The notes beneath the pieces are model-generated. The model was given only the letters and a program-made list of their open reading frames with translations. It was not told the DNA's origin and searched no databases. Shown piece by piece: positions 743 to 6,626 of a stretch of 64,000 nt of DNA; position 1 is the stretch's first letter; each line of letters begins with the position of its first letter. A program made the translations under genes and the position numbers. The stretch is from Hyphococcus sp. (GTDB taxonomy: Bacteria; Pseudomonadota; Alphaproteobacteria; Caulobacterales; Parvularculaceae), in the NCBI GenBank assembly GCA_028281665.1, contig JANQJK010000006.1, positions 62,001 through 126,000 of the forward strand. The letters are read 5' to 3'.

Positions 743-1918
743 ATGGCGAAGTTAGGTTTCAGTGAGTGGATCGCAGTGGGTCAGGTGATCGCCAGCGGAC
801 GCACTGTTCGGTACGGCGAAATGAAAGGACCGTTTACCGATCGGTTTGAACGCCGTCTTGCAGAAAAGTGCGGCGTAGACTTCGCACACACCGTCAACAG
901 CGGCACGTCGGCCCTCATCTGCGCCCTTGTGGGCGCCGGCGTCGGTCCCGGCGACGAGGTTCTCGTGCCCGCCTACACCTGGGTCGCGACGGCGGCCGCG
1001 GTTGCGTCGGTCGGCGCCGTGCCTGTCCTGGTTGAAATCAACGAAACGATGACAATGGATCCCGAAGATCTTGAGTCCAGGATCAACGAGAACACCCGGG
1101 CGATCATTCCGGTACACATGATCAACCTTGTCTGCGACATGGACGCGATTATGGAAATCGCGCGCCGGCGAGACCTGATCGTGATCGAGGACGCATGCCA
1201 GGCGGTCGGCGTCACCTACAAGGGACGGCGCGTCGGCTCCATCGGCCATGTGGGCGCGTTCAGTTTCAACCTGTACAAGAACATGAATATCGGCGAAGGC
1301 GGCGCGATTATCACAAACGACGAGCGCATCTATGCGCGCGCTCGCATGTATCATGACGTCGGCTCATATACGCGCGGGCATGACGATTTCGACGAACCCG
1401 TGTTTGTCGGCCAGAACTTCAAGGCGACGGAATTCGACGGCGCCATGCTGGGCGCGCAGCTTAGTAAACTCGATCCCCTGCTGAAGCGCATGAAAAAACG
1501 CCGCAAGAAAATTGCGGAGATTCTCGCGGCCAGCGACGCTTTCGACATCAGCCCCCACAACGATCCCGAAAACGCCGTCGGGCTTACCGTCCGTTTTTCA
1601 TCGCAGGAACAGGCGGCGGCATTTGCAAACCGGCGCGGGGTTTTTCATTTGTTCGACCGCAGCCGGCACATCTACACGAACTGGGAGCCGATCGTGGCGC
1701 GCCGCGCCTGGCATCCGATGCTCAATCCCTGGTCGCATGCAAAGCGCGATATTTCCTACTCGGCGCAAACCTGTCCGAAGACGCTCGACCTATTGTCCCG
1801 CGTCTGTCAGGTTTCCGTTGGCGCTCAATACCCCTCGCCGCTTATGAGTTATCTCGCACGCACCTATGTGGCGGCCTCAAAAGACATCGTCGGTGAAACT
1901 ATTTCAGCGCGTGCTTGA
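743..1918 (+). CDS. DegT/DnrJ/EryC1/StrS-family PLP-dependent aminotransferase
   Basis: A 391-residue fold-type I aminotransferase of the sugar/aminotransferase (DegT) family. Visible family marks are NSGTSAL (about 52-58, phosphate binding), DEVLVPAYTWVATA (71-84), the IEDACQAVG motif (148-156) and the presumed Schiff-base lysine K179 in NLYKNMNIGEGGA. Members transfer an amino group from glutamate or glutamine to keto-sugars or other ketones. No nucleotide-sugar genes lie nearby, so the substrate is unknown. The last 20 bases overlap the convergent GMC oxidoreductase gene, and the exporter gene diverges upstream, which hints at a small tailoring/export locus extending to the left. GGGAG precedes the ATG. 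Confidence 0.85.
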   Translation: MAKLGFSEWIAVGQVIASGRTVRYGEMKGPFTDRFERRLAEKCGVDFAHTVNSGTSALICALVGAGVGPGDEVLVPAYTWVATAAAVASVGAVPVLVEINETMTMDPEDLESRINENTRAIIPVHMINLVCDMDAIMEIARRRDLIVIEDACQAVGVTYKGRRVGSIGHVGAFSFNLYKNMNIGEGGAIITNDERIYARARMYHDVGSYTRGHDDFDEPVFVGQNFKATEFDGAMLGAQLSKLDPLLKRMKKRRKKIAEILAASDAFDISPHNDPENAVGLTVRFSSQEQAAAFANRRGVFHLFDRSRHIYTNWEPIVARRAWHPMLNPWSHAKRDISYSAQTCPKTLDLLSRVCQVSVGAQYPSPLMSYLARTYVAASKDIVGETISARA

Positions 1919-3644
1919 GGTGATCGGCGAGCCGCGTCGCCAGAGCGACGATTGTGAGCGTCGGATTTACGTGGCTGCTTGTGGGAAATACGGAACTGCC
2001 GGCGACATAGAGGTTTTTCGTTCCGTGCACACGGCAGTCAAGATCGACGACGCCGTCTTTGGGGCTCGCCGATATACGCGTACCGCCCATTGCATGGGCC
2101 ATGTCGATGAAGACGCCGTCCTCCGGCCGCTCGTCGATGACCCAGTCTTCCAATACAGGCGTCGGCAACCCCGCGCGCTCAAGCGCTGAAGCGAACAGTT
2201 GAGAAAGCCGGATGACCGACAGGCGCTCCTGCCGGCCGATCCGCCAATCAATTCTCGCAATCGGCACGCCAAGCGCGTCCCTTTTGTCGGAAAGCACCAC
2301 ACGGTTTTCCGGATCCGGACTTTGTTCTGAAATCACGTCGATAAAAAGCGAATCGAGCTTGTGGGGCAGCCCGCGCCGCTGTTGTTGCGTAACGGCGAAA
2401 TTCGGAAACCGTGCGATCATGAAATTGATCACCGCGTCCTTGAATCTCTCCGGCAGCAGGTTGCTGGAGAACAGCATCATCGCCGCGCCGTTCGCCAATG
2501 TATACGGGCTGGTCAGGACAGCGCGGAAATCCGACCATGGATGATCGCTGTTGCGTTTGACAAGTCGTTTTATCGCATCCCACGGATCGTCCGCCGCCCG
2601 GTTTTCCAGCATATAGAGCGCGCAATTGACGAGGCTTTCCCGCCGCTGCGCGTCTTCACTCAACGAAACGCCGTGCATGTATAACTGCCAGCGGTCGCCG
2701 TCCTTAACCCCGTAAAAGCCAAACCGGTTGTTGATCCTGTTGGCGTCTTCTTTCTTGAAGTATCCGACGCGAACGCCGGGATGATCCATAAAGTAGCGTC
2801 CGACCGTGTCGTGCGCATTGCCCACGCCATTTTGGTGTTTGCGGTCAGAGGCGAGAAGCAGGCGCGGGTTCTCAATGCCACCGGCCGCCAGCACCGCAAC
2901 CTTCGCACGGACATGGGATTTCGCGCCGTCAATGGTGGATATTTCGAAGCTGGCAAAATCTCCGGCGTCGTCCGTATCGATGTGTGTCGCCGTTGCATTC
3001 ATCAGAATGCGAATGTTCGCCGCGTCGAGCCGCAGAAACTCCGGCGCGATCCGCAAGATGTCCAGTTTATCAAGCCGCGACCGGGCGAATTGCCAGAAAA
3101 AGGGCTTCAAAACCTGCGGATCCAATTGCGGTTTGGGCGGCTCGGTCCCCGCTCGTTCAAACAGCCTTTCGTCGTAACAATTGGGCCCGAGATTCAGGAG
3201 CGCGGCGGCGCGGTCAAGGAACGGCGCCAACTCGTCATGGCCTATCGGCCAGCCGGAATTGGGAACCCATGACCTTGCCTCATGGTCAATCGGCTGAAAC
3301 GGCGCCGACTTGCCGGCCCAGCTTCGCGTAGACCCGCCGAAACATCGATTGCGCACGCCATAGGGCTGCTCGTCGGCGGACCATGACGGAATGAGCCCGC
3401 TGTGAAACTCAATGCGCTTTTCCTTCTGGGCGTCCGATACGAGCTCAGTCTCGATTTCCGTCCGGTTCAGCGCCGTATAGGCGGGCTGTTCCTCCTGAAG
3501 GCCGCTTTCAACGATGAGGACTTTTATGTCGCTGCCGGCAAGTTCCCGAGCGATTGTATAGCTTGCAGGCCCGCTCCCGACGATGACAAGGTCGGTCTCA
3601 AAGGTCGAGCCCGCGGGAAAATCGGCGAGGTTTTCCGTTTGCAT
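1899..3644 (-). CDS. GMC-family FAD-dependent oxidoreductase
   Basis: A glucose-methanol-choline family flavoprotein. The N-terminus carries the dinucleotide-binding stretch TDLVIVGSGPASYTIARELA, and the C-terminus has the family signature VAGSSVFPTSSHVNPTLTIVALA, where the HVNPT histidine is the usual catalytic base. There is no signal peptide. The track starts at a TTG (3671); I prefer the ATG at 3644 (MQTENL), which keeps the whole FAD fold, but neither has an ideal ribosome site. The 3' end overlaps the convergent aminotransferase. Substrate unknown: family members oxidise alcohols, sugars or choline. Confidence 0.85.
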   Translation of the reverse strand: MQTENLADFPAGSTFETDLVIVGSGPASYTIARELAGSDIKVLIVESGLQEEQPAYTALNRTEIETELVSDAQKEKRIEFHSGLIPSWSADEQPYGVRNRCFGGSTRSWAGKSAPFQPIDHEARSWVPNSGWPIGHDELAPFLDRAAALLNLGPNCYDERLFERAGTEPPKPQLDPQVLKPFFWQFARSRLDKLDILRIAPEFLRLDAANIRILMNATATHIDTDDAGDFASFEISTIDGAKSHVRAKVAVLAAGGIENPRLLLASDRKHQNGVGNAHDTVGRYFMDHPGVRVGYFKKEDANRINNRFGFYGVKDGDRWQLYMHGVSLSEDAQRRESLVNCALYMLENRAADDPWDAIKRLVKRNSDHPWSDFRAVLTSPYTLANGAAMMLFSSNLLPERFKDAVINFMIARFPNFAVTQQQRRGLPHKLDSLFIDVISEQSPDPENRVVLSDKRDALGVPIARIDWRIGRQERLSVIRLSQLFASALERAGLPTPVLEDWVIDERPEDGVFIDMAHAMGGTRISASPKDGVVDLDCRVHGTKNLYVAGSSVFPTSSHVNPTLTIVALATRLADHLKHALK

Positions 3645-3712
3645 GAACGTAGGCGCCTTGATGGGGCGCAACCGGCGCCGGGATTTTCGTGTCAGTATAT
3701 CAAATTGCCGCT

Positions 3713-4042
3713 TCAGGGGAGCCCCGGAAAACTCTCCACATACTGGACCTTGATGTCCGGGAAGCTGTCGACGAGCTGAATTTTCACGTCCGGAAAACTG
3801 TCAACGAACTTCCACTGGCCGCAATCGTCCGGAAAGCTCTCGACCACCTGGACCTTGAGATCAGGAAAACTGTCCACGATCTGCACTTTCAAATCCGGGA
3901 ACGACTCAACGATCTCCACATCGCCGTAAAGCGGAAAGCCGTTGAAGGTACAGTCATCCGCGATCAGGTCTTCGGCGGCGGCGTCTGGTGCATTCAACGA
4001 GACGGCACAAAACACGGAAAGCCCGACAACCTTAGCTGTCAT
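3713..4042 (-). CDS. Secreted SFPD-repeat protein, probable 7(1) septoil-knot domain
   Basis: About 109 residues. An N-terminal signal peptide (MTAKVVGLSVFCAVSLNAPDAAAE) is followed by CTFNGFPLYG and then six imperfect copies of an 11-residue unit of the form V-[DE]-SFPD-[LVI]-K-V-Q-[VIY], interrupted once by DDCGQW. One cysteine sits before the repeats and one in the interruption, so a disulfide is possible. I recognise this as the small family described as forming a 7(1) torus knot (septoil knot); this rests on recall of the repeat pattern, not a search. The ATG at 4042 has GGAG seven bases upstream and is preferred over the ATG at 4057. It overlaps the end of the signal peptidase gene, so the two are almost surely co-translated. 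Base composition is lower in GC than the flanks. Biological role unknown. Confidence 0.75.
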   Translation of the reverse strand: MTAKVVGLSVFCAVSLNAPDAAAEDLIADDCTFNGFPLYGDVEIVESFPDLKVQIVDSFPDLKVQVVESFPDDCGQWKFVDSFPDVKIQLVDSFPDIKVQYVESFPGLP

Positions 4043-5054
4043 TTGTTTGCTCCACATTCTTCTCTTTGGATAAATGTACCCGGCCGATTACAAAATCTTT
4101 GTGGATGTATCCAACTCTAGAGATTACGCGACTGTCTTGTGATTGGTCACGATTATCGCCAAGCATGAAATAGTGATCAGGCGGCACTGTATAGGGGCCG
4201 ACATTGTCAAATCGCCCAAAATCGGCATCGCATTCCTTCGTCTTATAAAACACGCCATTTGGCAACGTCTCGACATAAGTCACTGCCGATCCGGCATATC
4301 GGCATCCATTGTTTGTTCCATCTACCTCTTCGCGAGCGACCGGAACTCCGTTGATATGCAGCCGCCCACCAACAAACCTGATTTCTTCACCGGGTAGCCC
4401 AACCAGCCTCTTTACATAGGTATTGAGACCGTCTTTGGCATTGCGAAAAACTACAATATCGCCACGCTCGGGAGTCTTTTCCGCAAAACGTCTGTCGGGA
4501 AGCAATATGTCAAATGGCGCGAAAGAATGCTTGTTGATTCCGTAGGCGCTTTTTTCGACAAGGAAATAACTATTTTGGCCAATCGTTGGCATCATGGATG
4601 CTGCGGCAATATGAAAAGGCTGCACCAGAAAGAACCGGATTACTAATGCAGCGGCGACAGAAATCGCGATTGGCGCCGCCCAGATAACAACATAGCCAAG
4701 CAATCGACGCGGCCCCGCTTTCTCAGCCAATCGCGGCGACTTGACGACATAAACCCAGACACCGATTACGAACGGCGTTGAAAGCAATAGATAAGCAAGA
4801 TCACTAATGTCATTGATCGCAAAGCCCGCTGGCAGTGACACGGGCGAGTTCATGTAGATATAGGTTATACCGGCTACGCCCAACGATATGGCAGCGATCC
4901 CAGAAGCAACTGACATCAAAATAGCCGCCTTAGTGCGTCGAGCATAATATAAGCCAACGCCCCACCCCAAAACTGTCAGCAACGCGGCAATCCACGGTCT
5001 GATTTTTCTTAGGTCAGAGTCGTCAACGGTCTCGTCAGCTTTCTGATCAGCCAT
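4032..5054 (-). CDS. lepB: Signal peptidase I with multi-helix N-terminal extension
   Basis: A 340-residue type I signal peptidase. The catalytic serine is S153 in AAASMMPT, the general-base lysine is K215 in NTYVKRLVGLPGEEI, and box E is GDNRDQSQDSR near the C-terminus. Before the usual anchor helix (about 121-143) lie extra hydrophobic stretches (about 20-38, 43-67 and 85-103), giving a polytopic N-terminal domain not found in E. coli LepB. The family cleaves signal peptides of exported proteins on the outer face of the inner membrane. The downstream repeat-protein gene overlaps its 3' end. GC content is visibly lower than in the neighbours. This may be a dedicated or second signal peptidase; the housekeeping copy is not in view. 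Confidence 0.92.
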   Translation of the reverse strand: MADQKADETVDDSDLRKIRPWIAALLTVLGWGVGLYYARRTKAAILMSVASGIAAISLGVAGITYIYMNSPVSLPAGFAINDISDLAYLLLSTPFVIGVWVYVVKSPRLAEKAGPRRLLGYVVIWAAPIAISVAAALVIRFFLVQPFHIAAASMMPTIGQNSYFLVEKSAYGINKHSFAPFDILLPDRRFAEKTPERGDIVVFRNAKDGLNTYVKRLVGLPGEEIRFVGGRLHINGVPVAREEVDGTNNGCRYAGSAVTYVETLPNGVFYKTKECDADFGRFDNVGPYTVPPDHYFMLGDNRDQSQDSRVISRVGYIHKDFVIGRVHLSKEKNVEQTNDS

Positions 5055-5126
5055 TCGCCTTCCTCATGCGGAACCAGATGAATGTAGCATAACTGGATCC
5101 CGGTTCGGCGCGGACGAGCCAAGCGC

Positions 5127-6626
5127 TCACAACCCAAGTTTCGCCCACAATTCATCCACCCGCCGCACCACATCCTCGTCCATCTTCATCACCTCGCCCC
5201 AGTCGCGTTTGGTTTCCGGTCCGATCTTGTCGGTGGCGTCGAGGCCGATCTTGGAGCCGAGCCCGGATTCCGGCGAGGCGAAGTCAAGATAGTCGATCGG
5301 CGTGTTTTCAATGATGGTGATGTCGCGGGCGGGGTCCATTTTTGTCGAGACCGCCCACATCACGTCTTTCCAGTCGCGGGCGTCGACATCCTCGCCGACA
5401 ACGATGATCCATTTCGTATACATGAACTGGCGCAGATAGCTCCACGCGCCCATCATCACCCGCTTGGCGTGACCCGCATAGGCCTTCTTCATACGGATGA
5501 CCGCAATACGATAGGAACACCCTTCCGGCGGCAGCCAGAAATCAATGATTTCCGGGAACTGCTGCTGCAAAAGCGGAATGAAAACCTCGTTCAGCGCCTC
5601 ACCCAGGATCGAGGGCTCGTCCGGCGGGCGGCCGGTGAAGGTCGAAAGATAAATCGGATCGCGCCGATGCGTGATCGCGGTGACGGTGAAGACCGGAAAC
5701 CGTTCGACTGAATTATAGTACCCGGTGTGATCGCCGAACGGGCCTTCATCCGCATACTCATCAAGGGAGACATATCCCTCGATCACAATCTCCGCCGCCG
5801 CCGGGACTTTGAGGGGCTGCGTCTTGCAGTCCACCAGATCGACCTTCTTGCCCCGCAGCAATCCGGCGAACTGATATTCTGACAGCGTGTCGGGAACGGG
5901 CGTCACGGCGGCGAGGATGGTGCCGGGATCGGCGCCCAGAACGGCCGCCGCCGGCAACGGTTCGCTCTTCGTCTTGCCCCAACGGGCATGGTGCTGCGCG
6001 CCGCCGCGATGTTTCAGCCAGCGCATGATCGCTTTGTCCGGCGCGATCTTCTGCATGCGGTAAATGCCAAGATTGAAATCGTCCTCGCCTTTGCCGCTCG
6101 GCCCTCTGGTGACAACGAGCGGCCAGGTGATCAACGGCCCGGCGTCTCCCGGCCAGCAGGTCTGAATGGGCAATGCGTCGAGGTTTATGTCGCCGCCGGT
6201 TTTGATGACCTCGTGTACGGGGCCGGAGCGCCTGTTCGCCGGCTTCATGGCCATCACGGTTTTCAGGAGCGGCGCCATTTTCAGGGCGTCCTTAATGCCG
6301 CCCGGCGGCTCGGGCTGGCGCAGGAAGGCCAGCAGCTCGCCGACCTCGCGCAATTCCGCGCCGGTTGTTCGCTCCTTGCCCTCCAGGGTCACGCCCATGG
6401 CGACGCGCTTCACTGTGCCAAAAAGGTTCACCAGCACCGGCGTCGGCGAAATCGAGCCGTCATCCATCACGGGCTGCTCGAACAGCACCGCGGGCCCGCC
6501 TTCGGCGAGGAGCCGAAGCTGGATTTCGGTCATCTCAAGATTGACCGCGACGGGCTCGGCCACGCGAACAAGATCGCCGGCCGCTTCCAGTCGCTCAATG
6601 AAGTCGCGCAGGGATTTGTAAGCCAT
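5127..6626 (-). CDS. ubiD: UbiD-family decarboxylase (3-octaprenyl-4-hydroxybenzoate carboxy-lyase)
   Basis: Full-length UbiD (499 residues; E. coli about 497). It opens with [19 protein letters not shown] and has family stretches [26 protein letters not shown] and [34 protein letters not shown]. UbiD enzymes decarboxylate the ring carboxyl during ubiquinone synthesis using prenylated FMN and Mn2+; the flavin prenyltransferase UbiX is not in the window. It stands alone, with an intergenic region of about 250 bases to the divergent gene at 6875. Assignment to ubiquinone synthesis rather than another aromatic acid rests on close likeness to E. coli UbiD. Confidence 0.93.

Follow-up and report, generated by a model that had tools for sequence, protein, structure and literature searches.

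Complex protein knots are rare. To our knowledge, the most complicated knotted protein known is Q9PR55 (UU089.1) of Ureaplasma (PDB 8iwa, 8iwb, 8iwc, 8jrm and 8w68), which forms a 7_1 (septoil or septafoil) knot. This knot was predicted by AlphaFold and then confirmed by crystallography (PMC9278004, PMC13352647), and the knotted core spans residues 27-83 (PMC9278004). For P73136, a homologue of Q9PR55, the prediction is a 5_1 knot with a core at residues 45-94 (PMC9278004). Here we describe a gene of this family in a Hyphococcus sp. contig (the window, i.e. the whole stretch of 64,000 nucleotides analysed), together with the signal peptidase gene that it overlaps. According to our analysis, the locus is very probably made up of an ordinary Sec-exported knot-family protein and a foreign-looking accessory lepB that was inserted upstream of it, with the two genes coupled by chance and the peptidase no dedicated partner.

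The septoil-family gene and the fold of its product

The septoil-family gene is on the minus strand (3713-4057) and its ORF encodes 114 aa with six repeat units (five SFPD and a last one SFPG), in agreement with the initial annotation, which described a small secreted SFPD-repeat protein at this place. There are two candidate ATGs, at 4057 and 4042. The second one, which gives a protein of 109 aa, is probably the true start, because a GGAG is found 7 nt 5' of it (read from the sequence), translation from it begins with a classical signal peptide, and the start in the nearest relative agrees with it. Pfam and NCBIfam searches assigned no family to the small protein; PF19647, considered as a possible septoil-knot entry, is named DUF6150 in Pfam and has no match in the window genome. 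The gene is no chance ORF, since the small protein has matches among its relatives down to E 8.8e-57, it matches Q9PR55 at E 2.8e-11 (the sole credible match by phmmer against all PDB sequences), and its mature part differs from that of the closest relative (locus L083 of genome G023) by 20 synonymous and 2 non-synonymous differences (dN/dS about 0.018), which shows that the mature domain is under purifying selection.

A profile built from 78 relatives matches Q9PR55 at E 3.4e-16 over chain residues 26-85, i.e. nearly the whole published knotted core. The mature repeat domain (3713-3973, minus strand) was modelled from the 78 diverse relatives with pLDDT of 95, pTM of 0.81 and six strands; this model replaced an earlier one built on 27 close relatives (pLDDT 48). 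According to Foldseek results, the model matches 8iwa with probability 1.00, E 4.5e-6, TM of 0.59-0.64 and rmsd of 3.3, and the matches to 8iwa, 8iwb and 8jrm taken together have E values of 4.5e-6 to 4.9e-5, TM of 0.55-0.64 and rmsd of 3.3-3.4. Both sequence and fold thus place the small protein in the Q9PR55 knotted-protein family as a new member, and the proposed septoil-knot membership stands.

The superposition on 8iwa is looser than expected for about 46% identity, so the topology may differ from that of Q9PR55. We do not claim a 7_1 knot for the window protein, because a 5_1 knot was predicted for the homologue P73136. That the SFPD protein has the family fold with no knot, or with a 5_1 in place of a 7_1 knot, is a serious possibility that falls somewhat short of an even chance: the P73136 prediction and the TM of just 0.59-0.64 speak for it, while the profile alignment, which spans nearly the whole Q9PR55 core with a length difference of 2 residues, speaks against it. 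Either outcome is compatible with our main account of the locus.

Probable export and distribution of the family

The protein begins with a putative Sec-type signal peptide (MTAKVVGLSVFCAVSLNAPDAAA; 3974-4042, minus strand) read from the sequence, with a predicted cut before Glu29 (114-aa ORF numbering). A hydrophobic N-terminal segment is present in 74 out of 80 family loci, and a twin-arginine motif in none of the 80. These features suggest that the septoil protein is Sec-exported. Its Cys36 (3950-3952) and Cys79 (3821-3823; both in 114-aa ORF numbering) are candidates for a disulfide, and both cysteines are found in 76 of the 78 aligned relatives and both are missing in the other two. L142 and L147, two members from the Selenomonad lineage, are the sequences that lack both of these otherwise near-invariant residues. 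Joint absence in two sequences is expected for a disulfide, yet the two are closely related and count as one event. From this pattern a Cys36-Cys79 disulfide is probable.

Within the genus, 23 of 28 genomes contain a member of the septoil family; among 399 genomes from across the phylum 6 have one, and the named genome collection yielded 423 stretches with family members. Judged by record titles, the best 80 of these 423 stretches come from Alphaproteobacteria, Betaproteobacteria, Bacteroidota, Ignavibacteria, Myxococcota, Leptospiraceae, Cyanobacteria and Selenomonadales. All 50 collection genomes that were searched whole contain one copy each. One genome carries a shorter and more diverged second copy (L052; G015:C89:2540-2671) in addition to a full-length one. 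Phage sequences contain no member at E 1e-5, and plasmid records contain three. In Leptospira weilii and Burkholderia stagnalis, members that are unannotated or annotated as hypothetical lie on large replicons (NZ_CP092208.1, NZ_CP092209.1 and NZ_CP156686.1).

The neighbouring genes in most genus genomes encode a DEAD-box helicase and a GGDEF protein (Pfam), and those in other lineages include PntB, urocanate hydratase, peptide deformylase and glutathione peroxidase (read from the sequences only). A general gene partner for the family was rejected, as the neighbours change with lineage.

In the account that we favour for the window protein, the septoil product would be made as a preprotein and exported unfolded through the Sec translocon, a signal peptidase would cut it after Ala28, and the mature protein would fold outside the cytoplasm, where the Cys36-Cys79 disulfide would probably form and where a torus-type knot, if there is one, would be tied. 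Since most family members have Sec-type signal peptides, their chains would likewise cross the translocon unfolded and knot later. We give about even odds to the broader reading that the Q9PR55 family is not a mycoplasma curiosity, and that its members are widespread, single-copy, Sec-exported, probably disulfide-linked proteins with no fixed partner that knot outside the cytoplasm with no help from ATP-driven chaperones.

The signal peptidase gene and its probable insertion

The gene overlapped by the septoil gene (4032-5054, minus strand) encodes an accessory signal peptidase I (S26) of 340 aa, with a Peptidase_S26 match at E 2.2e-40 (PF10502, 138.8 bits, cut-off 22.9; TIGR02227, 137.1 bits, cut-off 47). 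The Ser-Lys dyad is present (Ser153 in SMMPT, codon 4596-4598; Lys215 in KRLVGLPG, codon 4410-4412). As had been proposed, the protein has extra hydrophobic segments ahead of the canonical one (residues 121-139): they lie at about 45-63 and 86-104, with a weaker one, judged by eye, at about 20-38. They are within an N-terminal extension (about residues 1-117; 4704-5054, minus strand) that has no Pfam match and that, searched against 385 genomes of the class, gave weak matches only, to membrane proteins that are unrelated by sequence and none of which is a signal peptidase. The window genome has four S26 genes, including a housekeeping lepB in a lepB-rnc-era arrangement at another locus. Full-length relatives of the extended LepB were found in 2 of the 27 other genus genomes, in both cases on a different contig from the septoil gene of that genome, and one of them adjoins era; 20 out of 23 septoil-positive genus genomes contain no full-length extended LepB. 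In one relative (L054; G016:C35:18961-19929) the motif reads FHIPSGAMKPA, with the nucleophile Ser before Met apparently replaced by Ala.

The overlap of the two ORFs, also noted in the initial annotation, was found to be 26 nt (4032-4057, minus strand) from the first ATG and 11 nt (4032-4042, ATGACAGCTAA) from the second. The closest relative shares the upstream neighbour, a ubiD-type decarboxylase gene (5127-6626, minus strand), and the downstream neighbour, a GMC oxidoreductase gene (1899-3671, minus strand), and there the septoil gene follows ubiD directly, with no lepB in between. By blastn, the DNA is 93% identical to L083 until ubiD ends and 91% identical once the signal peptide has ended, and an AT-rich segment of about 1.14 kb in the window (3992-5130, minus strand) has no counterpart. 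This segment runs from the ubiD stop into the septoil signal peptide, where it ends; between these two points L083 has about 71 bp. lepB has a GC content of 49%, as compared to 62% in the window as a whole, and a GC3 of 0.50, as compared to 0.70-0.78 in the neighbours. In another genus member a GAF-EAL gene takes the place of lepB between ubiD and the septoil gene (L034:5271-6506, minus strand), so the spot seems to tolerate insertions. We infer, mainly from the one close relative, that lepB was inserted here; its loss in the L083 lineage instead stands as a formal alternative.

Such an insertion, in the window lineage, of a foreign-looking accessory lepB downstream of ubiD and upstream of the knot gene would have placed the start codon of the knot gene within the 3' end of lepB, and with this position the two genes are probably translationally coupled. 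The coupling is thus likely but recent, and the overlap does not imply a partnership.

The search for linkage in other genomes first used our own S26 profile, which found the LepB-type genes but not two short S26 paralogues in the window genome, and it was therefore repeated with PF10502 on whole genomes. Among the 27 related genomes with a septoil gene, none has a Peptidase_S26 gene less than 5 kb from it; the closest approach is in G032, where about 13 kb separate the two on one contig. The same holds for 50 additional genomes, most of them from different families and phyla, where the smallest distance is about 8 kb (in the cyanobacterium G815). Many contigs with a septoil gene are short, and some of the neighbourhoods counted are incomplete. 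The two-gene unit proposed from the sequence, for which repeated linkage was the suggested test, is therefore not borne out; the closest relative has no lepB at the spot, and where the extended LepB has relatives, their genes are not on the septoil contig. The signal peptidase is not a conserved partner of the septoil protein and looks like a one-off insertion. It is probably able to process the knot preprotein, like other preproteins, without being dedicated to it.

It is rather unlikely that the pair was imported together, i.e. that a donor had both lepB and a septoil gene and that recombination inside the septoil gene brought in lepB, the start codon and the signal peptide as one block. The imported segment does seem to include the septoil start together with the larger part of the signal peptide, so a donor may have had the lepB-septoil order; compared with L083, the signal peptide has diverged far more than the mature part and the DNA downstream, which are 91% identical, and the AT-rich character spans lepB. 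However, signal peptides diverge fast, so that no replacement is needed, and no donor was found in the 28 genus genomes, the 385 class genomes or the plasmid collection. Were the pair imported, the linkage would be real in a donor lineage, though rare. A dedicated unit, in which the extended peptidase specifically processes the knotted protein and the overlap fixes the ratio of the two, is very improbable: the overlap of 11 or 26 nt with a Shine-Dalgarno sequence inside lepB, the intact Ser/Lys dyad and the inclusion of the septoil start and signal peptide in the imported DNA agree with it, but linkage is missing from every other genome examined, most septoil-positive genus genomes do without the full-length extended LepB, and its relatives lie on other contigs, one adjoining era. 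The interest of the locus is in the knot family, and the supposed peptidase partnership is not worth pursuing as a system.

Comparison with known systems

The window peptidase shares with LepB (S26, PF10502/TIGR02227) the catalytic domain and its Ser153 and Lys215 motifs, and differs from it by an N-terminal extension of about 117 residues that contains hydrophobic segments; it is an accessory enzyme and not the copy of the rnc-era operon. Of the described knotted proteins, P73136 (112 aa) is close to the window protein in length, and its predicted core would be the equivalent region if about 30 residues are signal peptide in both. Q9PR55 and the window protein have in common the repeat sequence, the alignment over the whole published core and the fold (Foldseek E 4.5e-6), whereas the signal peptide, the near-invariant cysteine pair and a further C-terminal SFPG unit distinguish the window protein from Q9PR55.
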